Below are positions 4,738-11,194 of a stretch of 64,000 nt of DNA, one piece after another. The position numbers and the translations under genes were made by a program. The stretch covers positions 50,584 to 114,583 of the forward strand of contig NZ_JACDNQ010000008.1 of the NCBI RefSeq assembly GCF_013839515.1, given 5' to 3'. The stretch's first letter is position 1. Each line of letters opens with the position of its first letter. The DNA comes from Natronomonas salinimetallica (lineage in GTDB: Archaea; Halobacteriota; Halobacteria; Halobacteriales; Haloarculaceae). The notes under the pieces were generated by a model. The model was not told the DNA's origin. It worked only from the letters and a program-made list of their open reading frames with translations, and made no database searches.

Positions 4738-4820
4738 TCATACTGCCGGCTGTACTCTCCCGACGATATTCGCCACTCCGGGTGGTGAGGGTCTTGCCAG
4801 ACGTACACCCGGCAGTATCA
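4738..4820. repeat. Dispersed palindromic element, copy A (83 bp)
   Basis: Inverted-repeat element: the left end reads TCATACTGCCGGCTGTAC at 4738, and the right end read from the complement is TGATACTGCCGGGTGTACG ending at 4820. The inner part has little symmetry. The right terminal TGA is the stop codon of the zinc-finger gene at 4818-5000. Related copies lie at 15792-15865, 25951-26024 and 54081-54193. No coding capacity. Confidence 0.8.
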
Positions 4821-5000
4821 GTCGCTCCGCCCTTCCCGACACGCCGGCCCACAGAAGTGCGTCGTCGAGACCGCCCCGTCCTCGATCCGGGTGACGACTC
4901 TGTGGCCCGGTTCGTTCACGATCGGCTCCCTACAAACCGCACAGCGGGGTGCCGTCTCCTCCGTTACGTCCTCGGCGAGCTCCGATGTCGGGTCGACCAT
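4818..5000 (-). CDS. Small zinc-finger protein, 60 aa
   Basis: A 60-residue protein with CAVC (about residue 20) and CGPAC (about residue 50) metal knuckles plus conserved-looking histidines, consistent with one treble-clef or zinc ribbon. I start at MVDPTSEL (5000) because CATATG at 5025-5030 would be its TATA-like box at -27; a start at 5027 is also possible. Its stop codon TGA is the first three bases of a dispersed palindromic element. Specific function unknown. Confidence 0.72.
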   Translation of the reverse strand: MVDPTSELAEDVTEETAPRCAVCREPIVNEPGHRVVTRIEDGAVSTTHFCGPACREGRSD

Positions 5001-5068
5001 CTCGTTGCACCGTTGGGTGGCGGGCATATGAACGGTTGTGTTTCGTGAGAACGCCCTCCCGTACTCGG

Positions 5069-6415
5069 TCACTCTTCGAGCGTCGTTTCGTCGAGCGCCG
5101 CCGGTTCGGTCTCGTCGGCCTGCCGACGGACGTCGACGTGGTAGTGTTCGAGGATGTCCCGCCCCAAGAGCAGCGGATACTCCATGTGACCTCTGTCTTC
5201 GATGCTCGCCGTCACGGTGTGTTGGGTACCGCCGACGCCGACGACCAAGTCGACGACCGGCCGAGAGCGACTGGATTTCACGCTCCCGGATTTGATCTTC
5301 ACGATGTCCTTTATCGGCCCGGTGCCGATCTCGGCTGCGAGGTGGGCGTCGATGCTCGTCCGCGTCGCGCCCGTATCGGACTTCGCCATCACGGTCCGCT
5401 GGCCGCTCGTCCCCATCGTGACGACCTCCTCGACGTAGCCGATGACGGGCGTCTCCGTCGGAACCGACGTCTCGGGTTTCGGCATGCATGCCGGCCGGGA
5501 GTCGTCGAGGGTCGCCGTGAGCTCGTGAACCCGCTCGGGGTCGACGTCGCCGCCGGCCCGCTCGATGGCGAGGCGGGCGATGTGGGGCGCGGGCGAGCGG
5601 CCGGTTGCTTTAAATAGTCCCCGGAAGCCGGCCGTCGGGTTCACTTCGAGGATGTAGTAGCCGTCCTCGCCCTCGACGACGTCGACACCCGCGTAGTCGA
5701 GGCCGACCTCGTCGGTCGCCCGCTTGGCCATCGTCGCGACCGCCTCGGGCAGCTCCTCGGTCGCGTTCTCGACGCGGCCCCCCAACGCGACGTTCGTCCG
5801 CCACTCGCCGTCCGGCGCATAGCGGTTCATCGCGCCGACGATCCGCTCGCCGACGACGTAGATCCGGAGGTCGTGGTGGCGCATCTCGTCGTGTTCGATG
5901 AGCTCCTGGAGGAACGCCTGCCGTGAGCCGACCATCGGGTTGATGTGGTCGTCGGTATCGAGCTTCCAGGTACCGCCGCCGTGGGTCCCGATGGCGGTCT
6001 TGTAGACGACCTCCTCGCCGAAGCGGTCCCGGCGGGTGTTCAGTATCTCGCCCGAAAGCGCCATGAGCGCGTCGGGGACCGAAAGCCCCGCCTCCGCGAG
6101 GGCGGTCCCGGACGCGAACTTGTGCATCGCGGTCATCGTCGCCGTCGGGGTGTTCAATACCGGGCGGATCCGATCGAGCATCGTCGCCAGCCCCAGCGCC
6201 TCGGCGGGCTGTTCTTCCTTCGAGAGCAACAGCCGGTTGACGACGATGTCGACGTCGGGTTCGAGCGTCACGGTCCCGTCCTCGATGTCGACGACGGTGT
6301 TTTCCGCACGGAGCCACGCGGTCCCGCAGCCGAGGTCGTCGATCGCGTTGAGTATGGCTTTCGTCTCCTTCGAACTGTGGAGGCTGAGAACGCCGACAGT
6401 AGGTGAATCGGACAT
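5069..6415 (-). CDS. RimK-like ATP-grasp ligase fused to a RimB-type retropepsin-like protease
   Basis: A 448-aa two-domain protein. Residues 1-290 are an ATP-grasp ligase of the RimK family, with nucleotide-binding KTAIGTHGGGTW (about 139-150) and metal-binding EVNPTAGF (257-264). RimK enzymes ligate glutamate or other amino acids to a protein or small-molecule carboxylate. Residues about 325-430 carry a putative aspartyl-protease-like domain (PF05618 type), with MAKSDTGATRTSID (catalytic-type DTGA at 347-350) and LLLGRDIL near the end. It diverges from an M14-type deacylase gene whose start is 107 bp away, suggesting a shared pathway. Substrate unknown. Confidence 0.85.
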   Translation of the reverse strand: MSDSPTVGVLSLHSSKETKAILNAIDDLGCGTAWLRAENTVVDIEDGTVTLEPDVDIVVNRLLLSKEEQPAEALGLATMLDRIRPVLNTPTATMTAMHKFASGTALAEAGLSVPDALMALSGEILNTRRDRFGEEVVYKTAIGTHGGGTWKLDTDDHINPMVGSRQAFLQELIEHDEMRHHDLRIYVVGERIVGAMNRYAPDGEWRTNVALGGRVENATEELPEAVATMAKRATDEVGLDYAGVDVVEGEDGYYILEVNPTAGFRGLFKATGRSPAPHIARLAIERAGGDVDPERVHELTATLDDSRPACMPKPETSVPTETPVIGYVEEVVTMGTSGQRTVMAKSDTGATRTSIDAHLAAEIGTGPIKDIVKIKSGSVKSSRSRPVVDLVVGVGGTQHTVTASIEDRGHMEYPLLLGRDILEHYHVDVRRQADETEPAALDETTLEE

Positions 6416-6521
6416 ACCGTGGGTGCGTTTGGTTTCGGCAAAACACTGCCGGTCCGGCTACGGGGCGGGACTCCGCCCCGGCGGACAGCGCTCTTATAGC
6501 CTTCCGCGTCGTGGCTCGGAT

Positions 6522-7535
6522 GTGTCCGCGAGATTCACCTACGACGGCGGGGCCGTCGACCCCGGCGAGACCGCCAACGTCCGTTTCACCGTCAGCGAGA
6601 CGTACCTGGGCGATCCGGTCCGGGTTCCCGTCACCGTCGTCAACGGCGAACACGAGGGGCCGACGCTCTGTCTGTCCGCCGCCGCCCACGGCGACGAACT
6701 CAACGGAATCGAGATCGTTCGGGAGGTCGCCCACGAGTGGGATCACTCGGATCTCTGCGGGACGCTCGTCTGTCTGCCGGTTCTCAACGTCCCCGGCTTC
6801 ATCGCCCAACAGCGGTACCTGCCGATCTACGACCGCGATCTTAACCGGTCGTTTCCGGGCGACGACTCGACGACGAGCGCAAAGCGGATCGCGGCCCGGG
6901 TGTTCGAGAACTTCATCCGGCCATGCGACGTCGGGCTGGATTTTCACACGTCGACGCGCGGCCGGACGAACATGCTTCACGTCCGTGCCGACATGGACGA
7001 TCCGTCGGTCGCTCGGGTCGCGAACGCGTTCGCCTCGAACGTCATCATCGCCGGCGAGGGGCCGAGCGGATCGTTGCGCCGTGAGGCGAGCGCCGCCGGC
7101 ACGTCGACGATCACGGTCGAACTCGGCGAGGCCCACCGGTTTCAGCGACCGCTCATCGACGCGGCGCTGGAGGGCGTCCTCTCGGTGATGTCGGAGTTCG
7201 GCATGTCGGAGACCGACCCGGTCAAGTGGCCCGGCTGGCGAACCGTCATCGACGCCGCGGAGGAGAAGACGTGGCTCCGGGCGGACACGGGCGGCCTCGT
7301 CGAGATGCACAACGACCGCGGCTCGCTGGTCGAGGCCGGCGACCCGGTCTGCACGATCACGAACCCGTTCAAGACCGACGTGACGACCGTCGAAGCGCCC
7401 TTTACCGGCGTGCTCATCGGCGTCCTCGAAAACCCCCTCGTCTACCCGGGCAACCCACTCTGTCATCTCGTGGCCCTCGACGGACCGACGCTTCGGGCGT
7501 TCCGCCGGAGCCGCCGCGCCCCGAGCGAACCATAA
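6522..7535 (+). CDS. Succinylglutamate desuccinylase/aspartoacylase-family (M14) hydrolase
   Basis: A 337-aa zinc hydrolase of the AstE/AspA branch of M14. Zinc ligands and active-site signs are SAAAHGDELNG (HxxE), YDRDLNRSFPG, LDFHTSTRGR and VELGEAH; the C-terminal third has the small beta domain (APFTGVLIGV) seen in the family. It starts at GTG 6522: TTATAG at 6494-6499 lies exactly at -27, so the transcript is probably leaderless. The divergent RimK/protease gene suggests that it removes or trims the amide product of that ligase. A T-run at 7538-7543 is a likely terminator. Confidence 0.87.
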   Translation: MSARFTYDGGAVDPGETANVRFTVSETYLGDPVRVPVTVVNGEHEGPTLCLSAAAHGDELNGIEIVREVAHEWDHSDLCGTLVCLPVLNVPGFIAQQRYLPIYDRDLNRSFPGDDSTTSAKRIAARVFENFIRPCDVGLDFHTSTRGRTNMLHVRADMDDPSVARVANAFASNVIIAGEGPSGSLRREASAAGTSTITVELGEAHRFQRPLIDAALEGVLSVMSEFGMSETDPVKWPGWRTVIDAAEEKTWLRADTGGLVEMHNDRGSLVEAGDPVCTITNPFKTDVTTVEAPFTGVLIGVLENPLVYPGNPLCHLVALDGPTLRAFRRSRRAPSEP

Positions 7536-7636
7536 CCTTTTTTAATTAGGTAGCCCTCAGTCCGATTCTTATAAATTCAGAACGGGAATATGTACGCGCG
7601 AACGGGCTCACGATCGGAAAGAAATGCCGCCGAACG

Positions 7637-7670
7637 CCTGCGAGACGTTCGCAGGTAGTAACTACTATAC
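7637..7670 (+). promoter_or_regulatory. sdhC promoter with upstream palindrome
   Basis: A perfect inverted repeat CCTGCGA-gacgt-TCGCAGG (7637-7655) lies immediately before the TATA-like CTACTATAC (7662-7670), which is at -27 relative to the sdhC ATG (7696). This geometry suits a repressor or activator acting at the sdh promoter. A second TATA candidate, CTTATAAATT near 7570, would give a leader containing the palindrome. Confidence 0.55.
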
Positions 7671-7695
7671 CAGCGGGGTACCGACCATACGATGC

Positions 7696-8088
7696 ATGAG
7701 TCAATCGTACGACCGAGGTCTGATAGAGGACTTCGGGCGGTGGCAGGAGTTCTCCGCCGGCATGTGGGCTTGGATATTCCACAAGTTCACCGGCTGGGTA
7801 CTCATCGGCTACCTCTTTACACACGTGGCGGTGTTGAGCACCGCCACCGTGGACGGGGCGACGTATACACAGACGCTCCAGGGGCTCGAGAGCCTGCTTA
7901 TCGTCCGGTTCCTCGAGGTCGGCCTGCTCGCGGTCGCCGCCTTTCACATCCTCAACGGCATCCGCTTGCTCTTCGTCGACCTGGGCGTTGGACTGGAGGC
8001 ACAGGACAAGGCGTTCTACGCCGCACTGATAGGAACCGCGGCCATCGCGGTCGCGAGTATCCCGACGTTCCTCCTGGGGGCGTTCTGA
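7696..8088 (+). CDS. sdhC: Succinate dehydrogenase, cytochrome b subunit
   Basis: First gene of sdhCDBA. The 130-aa protein has three membrane helices, with a haem-binding type histidine environment ([21 protein letters not shown]) and a second conserved [13 protein letters not shown] segment matching the SdhC/SdhD superfamily. With SdhD it anchors the dehydrogenase and passes electrons to menaquinone. The ATG at 7696 fits the TATA box at -27; longer frames lack homology. It is followed after one base by sdhD. Confidence 0.92.
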
Positions 8089-8089
8089 C

Positions 8090-8455
8090 ATGGCCGAACA
8101 CTACTCGTCGTTCGAGCCCAAGGGAACCCGCTGGCTGCTCCAGCGGATCACGGCCGCGTTCCTCGTCGTCGTGTTGGCGTACCACTTCCTGTTGTTGCAC
8201 TTCGTCAACCACGCGGCCGACATCACCTTCGCCGGGTCGCAAGTCCGGATGAGCCAGGTCGGCTACTTCTCGACGATGGTGTTGTTCTTGATCACCGCGG
8301 CGTTCCACGGCGTCAACGGCGTCTACAACGCCCTCGTCAATCAGGGTCTCGACGGCACCCAAAAGACCGTCGTTAAATGGCTTCTCATCGTCGCGGGGAC
8401 GCTCCTCGTCGTCCAGGGGACCCGCGTCGCGAGCGCCATGACGGGGCTGTTCTAA
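8090..8455 (+). CDS. sdhD: Succinate dehydrogenase, membrane anchor subunit
   Basis: The second membrane anchor, 121 aa with three helices; it has the paired pattern RITAAFLVVVLAYHFLLLHFV and ITAAFHGVNGVYNAL, where the histidines are candidate haem ligands. The ATG follows the sdhC stop by one base and the sdhB ATG comes two bases after its own stop, indicating tight translational coupling within one operon. Confidence 0.9.
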   Translation: MAEHYSSFEPKGTRWLLQRITAAFLVVVLAYHFLLLHFVNHAADITFAGSQVRMSQVGYFSTMVLFLITAAFHGVNGVYNALVNQGLDGTQKTVVKWLLIVAGTLLVVQGTRVASAMTGLF

Positions 8456-8457
8456 CA

Positions 8458-9321
8458 ATGAGCACGCAAGTCCAAGAGCGGGAGACGGATACGGAAGCCG
8501 AAGAAACGTCCGACCAGCAACAACGCCGACGCTCGGAGACGGGCGAACGCGACGACATGCGGGAGCGTGCGGAGACGGACCTCTCCGAGGCCGACGAGAC
8601 GGTTCGGATCAAGGTGTTCCGCTACGACCCCGAGGTCGAGGGGAAAAAGGACCCCCGCTTCGACACCTTCGAGGTACCGTTCCGGAAGGGAATGACGGTC
8701 CTCGACTCGCTCATCTACGCGCGGGACCACTTCGATTCGAGCCTTACCTTCCGACACTCCTGTCGGCAGGCGATCTGTGGCTCGGACGCGCTCTTCGTCA
8801 ACGGACGACAGCGACTCGGCTGTAAGACCCAGATGGTCGATTTGGAGTGGCCGGTTCGGATCGAACCGCTGCCACACGCCGAGGTCGTCAAGGACCTCGT
8901 CGTCGACATGGAGCACTTTTACGACCAGATGGAAGCAGTCGAGCCGTACTTCCAGACGAACGACCTCCCGGACGGGGAACTCGAAGAGCAGCGACAGACC
9001 CGAGAGAACCGCGAGAAGGTCAAGATGTCGACGCGCTGTATCTGGTGTAGCGCGTGTATGTCCTCGTGTAACATCGCGGCGGGCGACAACGAGTACCTCG
9101 GCCCGGCGGCCATCAACAAGGCATACCGATTCGCGATGGACAAACGGGAGGGAGCGGACATCAAAGAACACCGCCTCAACATCATCGAACAGGAACACGG
9201 CGTCTGGCGCTGTCAAACGCAGTTCTCCTGTACGGAAGTCTGTCCGAAGGATATCCCCCTGACGGAGCACATCCAGGAACTGAAACGCGAGGCAGTCAAG
9301 AGCAACCTGAAGTTCTGGTAG
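8458..9321 (+). CDS. sdhB: Succinate dehydrogenase, iron-sulfur subunit
   Basis: A 287-aa SdhB. It carries the [2Fe-2S] site as C102, C107, D110 and C122 (CRQAICGSDALF...LGC); the aspartate in the third position also occurs in E. coli SdhB. The [4Fe-4S] ligands are CIWCSACMSSC (194-204) and the [3Fe-4S] site includes CQTQFSCTEVCPKDIP. A roughly 45-residue acidic, low-complexity N-terminal extension precedes the ferredoxin fold and is a haloarchaeal trait. Electrons pass from the flavin in SdhA to quinone in SdhCD. Confidence 0.95.
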   Translation: MSTQVQERETDTEAEETSDQQQRRRSETGERDDMRERAETDLSEADETVRIKVFRYDPEVEGKKDPRFDTFEVPFRKGMTVLDSLIYARDHFDSSLTFRHSCRQAICGSDALFVNGRQRLGCKTQMVDLEWPVRIEPLPHAEVVKDLVVDMEHFYDQMEAVEPYFQTNDLPDGELEEQRQTRENREKVKMSTRCIWCSACMSSCNIAAGDNEYLGPAAINKAYRFAMDKREGADIKEHRLNIIEQEHGVWRCQTQFSCTEVCPKDIPLTEHIQELKREAVKSNLKFW

Positions 9322-9358
9322 CAGTAGTCTCAAGTCGCTCAAAACCCAACATAATACC

Positions 9359-11194
9359 ATGACAATACACGAACACGACGTGATCGTCGTCGGTGCTGGC
9401 GGTGCCGGGCTCCGGGCCGCGATCGCAGCCAACGAGGAGGGCGCGGACGTGGCAATGGTCACGAAACTCCACCCAGTCCGCTCGCACACCGGTGCCGCCG
9501 AGGGCGGGATCAACGCGGCTTTGCGGGACGGCGACGACTGGGAACTCCACGCCTACGATACGATGAAGGGGTCGGACTATCTCGGTGACGCCCCGGCCAT
9601 CGAGACGCTCGCCCAGGACGCTCCCGAGGAGGTCATCCAACTCGAACACTGGGGGATGCCCTTCTCCCGCGAGGACGACGGCCGCGTCTCCCAGCGCCCC
9701 TTCGGCGGGCTCTCGTTTCCCCGAACGACCTATGCCGGTGCCGAGACCGGCCACCACCTGCTGCACACGATGTACGAGCAGGTCGTCAAACGCGGGATCA
9801 CGGTCTACGACGAGTTCTACGTCAGCCGACTCGCGGTCACAGACCACGACGACCCCGAAGACCGGGAGTGCCACGGCTGTGTCGCCTACGACATCAAGTC
9901 CGGCGACGTCGTTGGCTTCCGAGCCAACAACGGCGTCATCCTCGCAACCGGCGGCGACGGACAGGTCTTCGATCACACCACGAACGCCGTCGCCAACACC
10001 GGGGACGGCGCGGCGATGGCGTATCGTGCAGGCGTCCCGGTCGAGGACATGGAGTTCGTCCAGTTCCACCCGACGACACTCCCGTCGACCGGCGTGCTCA
10101 TCTCCGAGGGCGTCCGAGGCGAGGGCGGCATCCTGTATAACCGCGAGGGCGAGCGGTTCATGTTCGAACACGGCTACGCCAACAACGACGGCGAACTCGC
10201 CTCCCGGGACGTGGTCTCACGCGCCGAACTGACCGAAGTCAACGAGGGCCGCGGGATCAACGACGAGTACGTCTATCTCGACATGCGGCATCTCGGCGAG
10301 GAGCGGATCTACGACCGCCTCGAGAACATCATCCACCTCGCGGAGGACTTCGAGGGCGTCAATCCGGTCGAGGAGCCGATGCCGGTCAAGCCCGGACAGC
10401 ACTACCACATGGGCGGCATCGAAACGAGCGAGCACGGCGAAACGTGTATCAACGGGCTGTACGCCGCTGGCGAGTGTGCGTGTGCGTCGGTTCACGGCTC
10501 GAACCGACTCGGCGGCAACGCCCTGCCGGAACTGATCGTCTTCGGTGCCCGTGCCGGCCACCACGCCGCCGGCCGGGACCTCGGCAAGGCCGAGGTTCCG
10601 ATCGGATCGTCAGCCGAGTCCGAGGCCGAGGAGGGTCTCGACACGCCGGTCGAACCGGGCGCGCTCGACTCGACCGACGGCGACGTCGCCGCCGATGGAG
10701 CGTTGGTCGAGCCGACCGAAGTCGTCGAACACGCCGTCGAGTACGAACGGAGCCGGGTCGAAGACATGCTCGAACGCGACGGCACCAACCACGCCGAGAT
10801 CCGTGGGGACCTCCAGAAGGCGATGACCGAGAACGTCAACGTCTTCCGGGAGAAAGAGAGCCTCAAGGACGCTCTCGAAGTCATCCGCGAGTGCCGCGAG
10901 CGCTACCAGGACGTGGCCGTCTCGGATCCTTCCCGGACGTACAATACGGATCTGATCCACACGATCGAAACCCGGAATCTCATCGACATCGCCGAGACGA
11001 TTACGCTCGGCGCGTTGGCGCGCGACGAATTCCGTGGTGCTCACTGGCGGCGCGAACACCAAGAACGAAAGGACGAGGAGTGGCTCAAACACACGATGAT
11101 CTCCTGGAACGAGGGCACGCCGAGGCTCTACTACAAGCCCGTCGTCCTCGAAGGCGAAAGCAAAGAGTACGAGCCGAAAGTCCGCTCGTACTGA
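9359..11194 (+). CDS. sdhA: Succinate dehydrogenase, flavoprotein subunit
   Basis: A 611-aa FAD subunit that oxidises succinate to fumarate. The Rossmann motif VVGAGGAGLRAA, the covalent-flavin histidine segment VRSHTGAAEGGINAAL, the substrate-binding HPTTLPSTGVLISEG and HYHMGGIETSEHG are all intact. It is the last gene of sdhCDBA, 37 bp after sdhB. A low-conservation insert of about 45 residues around residue 430 (EAEEGLDTPVEPG) is acidic and probably surface exposed. Confidence 0.96.
   Translation: MTIHEHDVIVVGAGGAGLRAAIAANEEGADVAMVTKLHPVRSHTGAAEGGINAALRDGDDWELHAYDTMKGSDYLGDAPAIETLAQDAPEEVIQLEHWGMPFSREDDGRVSQRPFGGLSFPRTTYAGAETGHHLLHTMYEQVVKRGITVYDEFYVSRLAVTDHDDPEDRECHGCVAYDIKSGDVVGFRANNGVILATGGDGQVFDHTTNAVANTGDGAAMAYRAGVPVEDMEFVQFHPTTLPSTGVLISEGVRGEGGILYNREGERFMFEHGYANNDGELASRDVVSRAELTEVNEGRGINDEYVYLDMRHLGEERIYDRLENIIHLAEDFEGVNPVEEPMPVKPGQHYHMGGIETSEHGETCINGLYAAGECACASVHGSNRLGGNALPELIVFGARAGHHAAGRDLGKAEVPIGSSAESEAEEGLDTPVEPGALDSTDGDVAADGALVEPTEVVEHAVEYERSRVEDMLERDGTNHAEIRGDLQKAMTENVNVFREKESLKDALEVIRECRERYQDVAVSDPSRTYNTDLIHTIETRNLIDIAETITLGALARDEFRGAHWRREHQERKDEEWLKHTMISWNEGTPRLYYKPVVLEGESKEYEPKVRSY

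Follow-up and report, generated by a model that had tools for sequence, protein, structure and literature searches.

A RimK-RimB fusion with a divergent zinc hydrolase in Halobacteria: a candidate cycle for alpha-linked glutamate chains

The ATP-grasp ligase RimK and the protease RimB have been studied almost only as modifiers of ribosomal protein S6. RimB cuts runs of about 5-6 or more glutamates and stimulates RimK, yielding poly-alpha-glutamate of up to 28-36 units, according to the principal report (Journal of Biological Chemistry (JBC) 2025, PMC11957791). That work also describes a RimBK hybrid in some bacteria, with RimB as the N-terminal part; its survey covered bacterial accessions only, and the string "archae" occurs zero times in its text. 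Here, we analyzed a 64,000-nucleotide stretch of Natronomonas salinimetallica (assembly GCF_013839515.1, contig NZ_JACDNQ010000008.1, positions 50,584 to 114,583), referred to as the window, from a haloarchaeal genome of 2.78 Mb (G000). It encodes a RimK-RimB fusion in which the ligase comes first, and an AstE/AspA-type zinc hydrolase that is transcribed divergently.

The distribution of these genes in Halobacteria, methanogens, and bacteria supports the conclusion that the RimK, RimB, and hydrolase activities belong together. With moderate confidence, we propose that a ligase, an endoprotease, and a finishing hydrolase encoded at the locus form a build-cut-finish cycle that acts on alpha-linked glutamate chains.

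Joint occurrence of ligase, retropepsin, and hydrolase

Presence of both genes was called in 145 Halobacteria genomes (class draw, completeness ≥90%), using best matches of E ≤2.3e-116 for the fusion (next best 3.5e-25) and E ≤6.4e-136 for the hydrolase (next best 4.9e-42). Both genes were present in 131 genomes and neither in 13, with a single genome (G109) carrying the hydrolase only and none the fusion only (Fisher p 1.2e-17, relatedness not corrected for). In each of four genera from four families (g4, g11, g15, and g33), one genome lacks both genes and the other sampled members have both, indicating at least four independent joint losses. The initial annotation had treated the ligase, protease, and hydrolase as one trio; the counts agree, and independence of the hydrolase from the fusion, the outcome that it had named as refuting this view, was not seen among the 145 genomes.

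The two genes are usually neighbors. Across the 131 genomes, they are divergent with a gap of 86-286 bp in 86 and divergent at 1.1-4.7 kb in 35, and the remainder have them near each other on one strand (two genomes) or far apart (eight). The sole fusion copy of G123 and of G130 has diverged (50-53% identity) and is unlinked to the hydrolase. Extra copies in G062 and G023 (loci L044 and L045) and on a Halolamina plasmid are again divergent pairs. Fusion copies on Salinirubellus and Natrononativus plasmids (L178 and L179, about 52% identity) lack a hydrolase gene within the region displayed, and pairing thus does not extend to every paralogue. Universal stress protein genes surround these two diverged plasmid copies. 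A GNAT and a flippase gene (named by eye) lie between hydrolase and fusion in family f3; they were considered as extra components but set aside, being seen only there. The ligase-first order was not found beyond Halobacteria: in 200 Pseudomonadota genomes, no listed match extends past fusion residue 312, and the 11 plasmid records covering ≥80% of the fusion are all haloarchaeal.

The same trio occurs unfused elsewhere. Searching 246 Halobacteriota genomes with PF05618 recovered full-length RimB in Methanosarcinaceae, where rimB, rimK, and an orthologue-like hydrolase gene are adjacent at every one of the 14 full-match loci inspected (L060-L073). Weak PF05618 matches in methanogens (L074-L080, L082) were discarded, having no RimK or hydrolase match nearby; the open reading frames (ORFs) at L074 and L079 carry an HExxH-like motif and look like another protein. 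We then consider 84,980 species genomes scanned with a Methanosarcinaceae RimB seed, from which the best 80 loci were taken, a set that is biased to the seed and includes loci cut by contig ends. All three genes were found in 61 of these, RimB and RimK in five, RimB and hydrolase in one, and RimB only in 13. The 80 loci come from several phyla, and the order of the trio is permuted among them and at times divergent.

A less biased check used the 200 Pseudomonadota genomes (hydrolase E ≤3.1e-75, relatedness not corrected for). The hydrolase occurs in 56, accompanied by PF05618/RimB in 55 and by a RimK-like match in all 56. Although 36 of the 58 hydrolase genes lie ≤5 kb from a RimK-like match, 22 are >5 kb from both partners; the association therefore does not come from linkage alone.

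Domains, active sites, and locus layout

The ligase half matches PF08443 (80.6 bits, cut-off 21). For residue comparison, 47 haloarchaeal fusions were aligned to E. coli RimK and to 64 RimKs of RimB-bearing loci, and their retropepsin half to 80 RimBs. The RimK catalytic positions K100, K141, D187, R189, N213, D248, E260, and N262 (E. coli numbering) are kept in 47/47 fusions; the catalytic residues of the window ligase are K99, K139, D182, R184, D245, E257, and N259. Residues S7, R8, S14, R64, S68, R189, and N262 are given as the poly-glutamate contacts of RimK in structural work (PMC10092738). R64, R189, and N262 are kept in 47/47 fusions, S7 in 45/47, and S68 in 43/47, whereas R8 and S14 are replaced, leaving the ligase half short of the full contact set of the S6 ligase. 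Foldseek with the fusion model returned LysX/ArgX and RimK structures (E 1e-20 to 1e-17), the listed matches covering the ligase half only, and in a tree the haloarchaeal ligase half groups with MptN/ArgX. We rejected MptN, LysX/ArgX, and CofF as identities for it, as all equivalog cut-offs were missed (116.4, 111.3, and 42.4 bits against 350, 275.6, and 300). A methanosarcinal RimK (L180) passes the S6-ligase cut-off (469.5 against 331 bits). In the reciprocal search, the Methanolobus RimK matches three ATP-grasp proteins of the window genome about equally, a tie.

The C-terminal half matches PF05618 Zn_protease/RimB with 40.9 bits (cut-off 27), and Protein Data Bank entry 9g59 aligns to fusion residues 343-429 (E 1.6e-6). 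Within the DTGA motif, D347 and G349 are present in 47/47 fusions and T348 in 46/47. Basic residues K345, R385, R408, and R419 are common to the 47 fusions and 80 RimBs; for RloA, a secreted RimB paralogue, K46, R114, and R137 are named in the corresponding paper (mBio 2025, PMC12239564).

The hydrolase matches PF24827 AstE_AspA_cat with 158.2 bits (cut-off 25), and H56, E59, N108, R109, H142, and E200 are invariant in 37/37 aligned rows. We take N108/R109 to be the carboxylate-binding pair of M14 enzymes, H142 to be the third zinc ligand, and E200 to be the presumed catalytic glutamate. With these counts, the initial annotation was right that all active-site motifs of ligase, retropepsin, and hydrolase are intact. 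The predicted structure matches DoeB, CphZ (Z 28), and other M14 enzymes, with CCP5 lower (Z 16.8). DoeB (and hence ectoine use), AstE, and aspartoacylase were each rejected as the identity of the hydrolase because the equivalog cut-offs of 402.7, 305.65, and 180 bits were missed (94.4, 21.5, and 30.8 bits). It is the best match in the window genome of the Methanolobus trio hydrolase (1e-54, next 5e-38). A single clade of haloarchaeal and bacterial/methanosarcinal trio hydrolases is absent from the best tree but is not rejected by the approximately unbiased (AU) test (p 0.261). Long second hydrolase copies occur in several of the 200 Pseudomonadota genomes, and a Marinobacter locus (G346:C12, L213:1207-2595) encodes a longer paralogue in a 463-aa open frame with an apparent N-terminal signal peptide. 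The Marinobacter paralogue may be a secreted counterpart of the trio hydrolase, as RloA is to RimB.

Feature coordinates are collected in Table 1. The mechanical ORF of the hydrolase opens at 6036, within the fusion gene on the opposite strand; as conservation starts only at GTG 6522, the likely start codon, the two genes are divergent and do not overlap. Third-position GC is high in both (0.88), which together with orthologues of both in 131/145 class genomes argues that the gene pair is not due to chance. ORF checks and Pfam matches left the coordinates and domain names first assigned to fusion and hydrolase unchanged.

Table 1. Features of the fusion-hydrolase locus in window coordinates, and MscS-type genes at RimB loci
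Feature	Position	Strand	Details
RimK-RimB fusion gene	5069..6415	-	448 aa; ligase half N-terminal, retropepsin half C-terminal; AlphaFold2 mean predicted local distance difference test (pLDDT) 86
RimK-type ATP-grasp domain	5594..6127	-	fusion residues 97-274, Pfam PF08443
RimB/RloA-type retropepsin part matching PF05618	5120..5317	-	fusion residues 367-432; entire half about 318-435
Retropepsin active-site motif DTGA	5366..5377	-	fusion residues 347-350
Divergent intergenic region	6416..6521	.	106 bp
AstE/AspA-type zinc hydrolase gene	6522..7535	+	337 aa, GTG start; AlphaFold2 mean pLDDT 92
Hydrolase zinc-binding HGDE (H56, E59)	6687..6698	+	alignment
Hydrolase NR pair (N108, R109)	6843..6848	+	alignment
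Hydrolase H142	6945..6947	+	alignment
Hydrolase E200 of ExG	7119..7121	+	alignment
MscS-type genes ≤5 kb from RimB in unrelated lineages	L060, L091, L092, L111, L119, L121, L126, L135, L154, L164, L169		

Several neighboring genes were recorded in passing. Within 4818-5489 (minus strand), a mechanical ORF that lies downstream of the fusion gene has at its 3' end a short Cys-rich stretch (CAVC...FCGPAC) that could be a small zinc protein. The succinate dehydrogenase operon begins just downstream of the hydrolase in many haloarchaea, even where the fusion has moved away (window 6522-11194; L040-L059). A RuBisCO-like large-subunit gene, recognized by eye, follows the trio in Methanolobus (L090:7497-8933). 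By Pfam, two neighbors of trio or RimB loci match the MATCAP tyrosine carboxypeptidase family and two match N-formylglutamate amidohydrolase; both families occur in other ATP-grasp peptide systems.

Candidate functions

The proposed cycle would proceed in three steps. Using ATP, the ATP-grasp half would add glutamate to an acceptor carboxylate, either on a growing glutamate chain or at a protein C terminus. The attached retropepsin half, as a dimer, would cut glutamate runs and may stimulate the ligase, by analogy with the published work on Pseudomonas RimB. An endoprotease that needs at least five glutamates should leave short stubs and oligomers, and the divergent M14-type hydrolase would take off the terminal amino acids that remain, freeing glutamate, much as the related enzyme CphZ completes cyanophycin degradation. 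Its conserved NR pair and the CphZ-like fold of its model would make the hydrolase a natural finisher. From the run-length need of RimB, such an M14 finisher, and the same three-step logic in cyanophycin metabolism, we infer a build-cut-finish cycle for glutamate. To judge from the alignment, the changed acceptor residues of the haloarchaeal ligase half would allow a different acceptor from that of RimK.

Bacterial S6 (PF01250) was found in none of 19 archaeal genomes (nine haloarchaeal and 10 Methanosarcinaceae), with 10 bacterial controls positive. S6 therefore cannot be the target there, and S6-type ribosome modification was rejected for archaea. The methanosarcinal RimK is of the S6-ligase type by cut-off, yet its host genome has no S6. 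The analogy with bacterial S6 that the initial annotation had drawn thus does not carry over, a conclusion strengthened by two features of the ligase half: it scores 60.2 bits against the 331-bit cut-off of the S6-ligase NCBIfam equivalog (NF007764), and four residues of the RimK poly-glutamate/ATP cleft are replaced (R8 by L12, S14 by E17, H215 by A210, and R216 by L211).

The replaced cleft residues also weigh against the glutamate cycle, as do several other observations. The best NCBIfam equivalogs of the ligase half are MptN and LysX, not the S6 ligase, and in the tree it appears to form a separate clade that lies apart from S6-RimK (AU p 0.0196 against grouping with it, with long branches meeting). 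The closest characterized sequence relative of the hydrolase, DoeB, is a small-molecule deacetylase. No substrate is on record for any haloarchaeal member. The RimBK hybrid cut polyglutamylated S6 and was not seen to glutamylate it (PMC11957791). Finally, 17 of 72 RimB-bearing Pseudomonadota genomes have no hydrolase, so bacterial RimB can do without it.

Three other explanations deserve consideration. One is reversible protein tagging: a particular archaeal protein other than S6 might have glutamates added to its C terminus and trimmed by the fusion, with the hydrolase removing the last residues. RimK and RimB do act in this way on S6 in Pseudomonas (PMC11957791), archaeal trio genomes without S6 would imply another protein as target, and CCP5, a deglutamylase, lies in the fold neighborhood of the hydrolase. 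However, none of the genes conserved next to the pair is a candidate target, and the shared haloarchaeal neighbors, sdhCDBA and a DNA glycosylase, look like ordinary synteny; we regard protein tagging as rather unlikely. In a small-molecule pathway, a small acid or coenzyme would receive glutamate or another amino acid from the ligase (compare MptN, CofF, ArgX, and the mammalian N-acetylaspartylglutamate synthases), and the AspA-type hydrolase would split the conjugate. Such a pathway would suit the ligase half, whose highest equivalog scores are to MptN (116 bits) and LysX (111 bits) and which groups with MptN/ArgX. The hydrolase relatives point the same way, since N-acyl amino acids are the substrates of DoeB, AstE, and AspA. 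Against such a pathway, every equivalog cut-off is missed, a conjugate of one residue gives little reason for a retropepsin in the same polypeptide, and classical S6-type RimK and RimB are accompanied by the same type of hydrolase. Our assessment is that small-molecule conjugation is improbable.

The hydrolase could also be a bystander, kept beside the fusion by old synteny and working in ordinary N-acyl amino acid catabolism. In many genomes it does lie beside sdhCDBA, and it keeps that place at L047 and L050, where the fusion gene is located elsewhere; in G109, the fusion is absent altogether. Against this, hydrolase and fusion are present or absent together in 144/145 genomes and were jointly lost in at least four genera, and in Pseudomonadota the hydrolase co-occurs with RimB in 55/56 genomes, even where unlinked. 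We regard a bystander role as very unlikely.

The common role of the three activities in the proposed cycle is probably to adjust the cell to its salinity or osmotic state. Of 94 RimB loci, 28 have an MscS-type channel gene nearby; 17 of these loci belong to Marinobacter and 11 to other groups that include Methanosarcinaceae and Desulfocapsa. In a Pfam scan of 160 of the 212 neighbor proteins, drawn from 32 of 34 chosen loci and read without a matched background set, MscS was found 11 times and CorA eight times. By motif search, CorA genes are near 13 of 94 loci, seven of which are RimB-only Methylobacter loci. The plasmid records that carry a trio-type hydrolase (≥40% identity) come mainly from bacteria of the sea or of salty habitats (Vibrio, Salinivibrio, Photobacterium, Acaryochloris, Phaeobacter), with Legionella also present, and in two Photobacterium records rimK ends just before the hydrolase. 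K05844 is, we presume, the KEGG orthology (KO) identifier for RimK. The RimK KO is reported to be commoner in brackish than in marine genomes (PMC10219603), and rimK of Photobacterium damselae to be 52-fold higher at low salt, in a strain that differs from the Photobacterium records carrying rimK and hydrolase (PMC10308900). RloA is needed under hypo-osmotic conditions, while P. aeruginosa deleted for rimB showed no hypo-osmotic phenotype in the same study (PMC12239564), which counts against an osmotic role for the trio. The salinity link comes from lineages outside the haloarchaea and is suggestive rather than proof.

A broader extension of the glutamate cycle is conceivable, although we hold it only tentatively and rather doubt it. 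A complete poly-alpha-glutamate cycle might serve bacteria and archaea as a glutamate buffer that responds to salinity or turgor, having moved among methanogens, haloarchaea, and marine bacteria; in haloarchaea, the first two steps would have merged in a single enzyme that regulates itself, and S6 glutamylation would be a side branch of an older function. With a hydrolase nearly always beside RimK/RimB in many lineages, and with the system retained by archaea devoid of S6, the principal product would be something other than modified S6. The trio would also bring a third enzyme within reach of assays, with Haloferax as a genetically convenient host, and the role of RimK/RimB where S6 is missing becomes directly testable.

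Comparison with described systems

The RimABK, or RimB-RimK, system of Pseudomonas likewise pairs an ATP-grasp glutamate ligase with a retropepsin-like RimB, with catalytic residues conserved. In contrast, the window system is fused, is found in archaea without bacterial S6, has a ligase half that apparently comes from another RimK branch, and has a zinc hydrolase as partner. Ligase and retropepsin share one chain in the RimBK hybrids described for Desulfotalea and for Flavobacteriales/Rhodobacterales (PMC11957791); there, RimB is N-terminal, whereas the domain order is reversed in the window fusion. RloABC of Pseudomonas likewise has a PF05618 retropepsin that cuts glutamate runs and a genetic tie to an ATP-grasp protein (PMC12239564). 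RloA, however, is secreted and comes with an inactive-transglutaminase membrane protein (RloB); neither feature was noticed at the window locus, and no search for them was made in haloarchaea.

The hydrolase shares its fold, zinc site, and NR pair with DoeB, CphZ, AstE, and aspartoacylase (PF24827), but misses the equivalog cut-offs of DoeB, AstE, and aspartoacylase. The cyanophycin cycle involves another polymer and an unrelated middle enzyme. Its similarity lies in the arrangement of CphA, CphB, and CphZ/IadA, an ATP-grasp polymer synthetase, a polymer-specific peptidase, and a finishing dipeptide hydrolase (PMC10206079).

Neither the haloarchaeal ligase-first order nor the hydrolase as a regular third partner of RimK/RimB was found in the literature searched, and among the papers listed, those bringing together RimK and an aspartoacylase name concerned mammalian or unrelated work. 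Parts of the system may be described by Iyer et al. (2009) in work on amidoligases. Overall, RimK, RimB, and the opposite-order RimBK hybrid are already known, and what is new in our searches is the ligase-first fusion, seen in Halobacteria only, together with the hydrolase as a regular partner.

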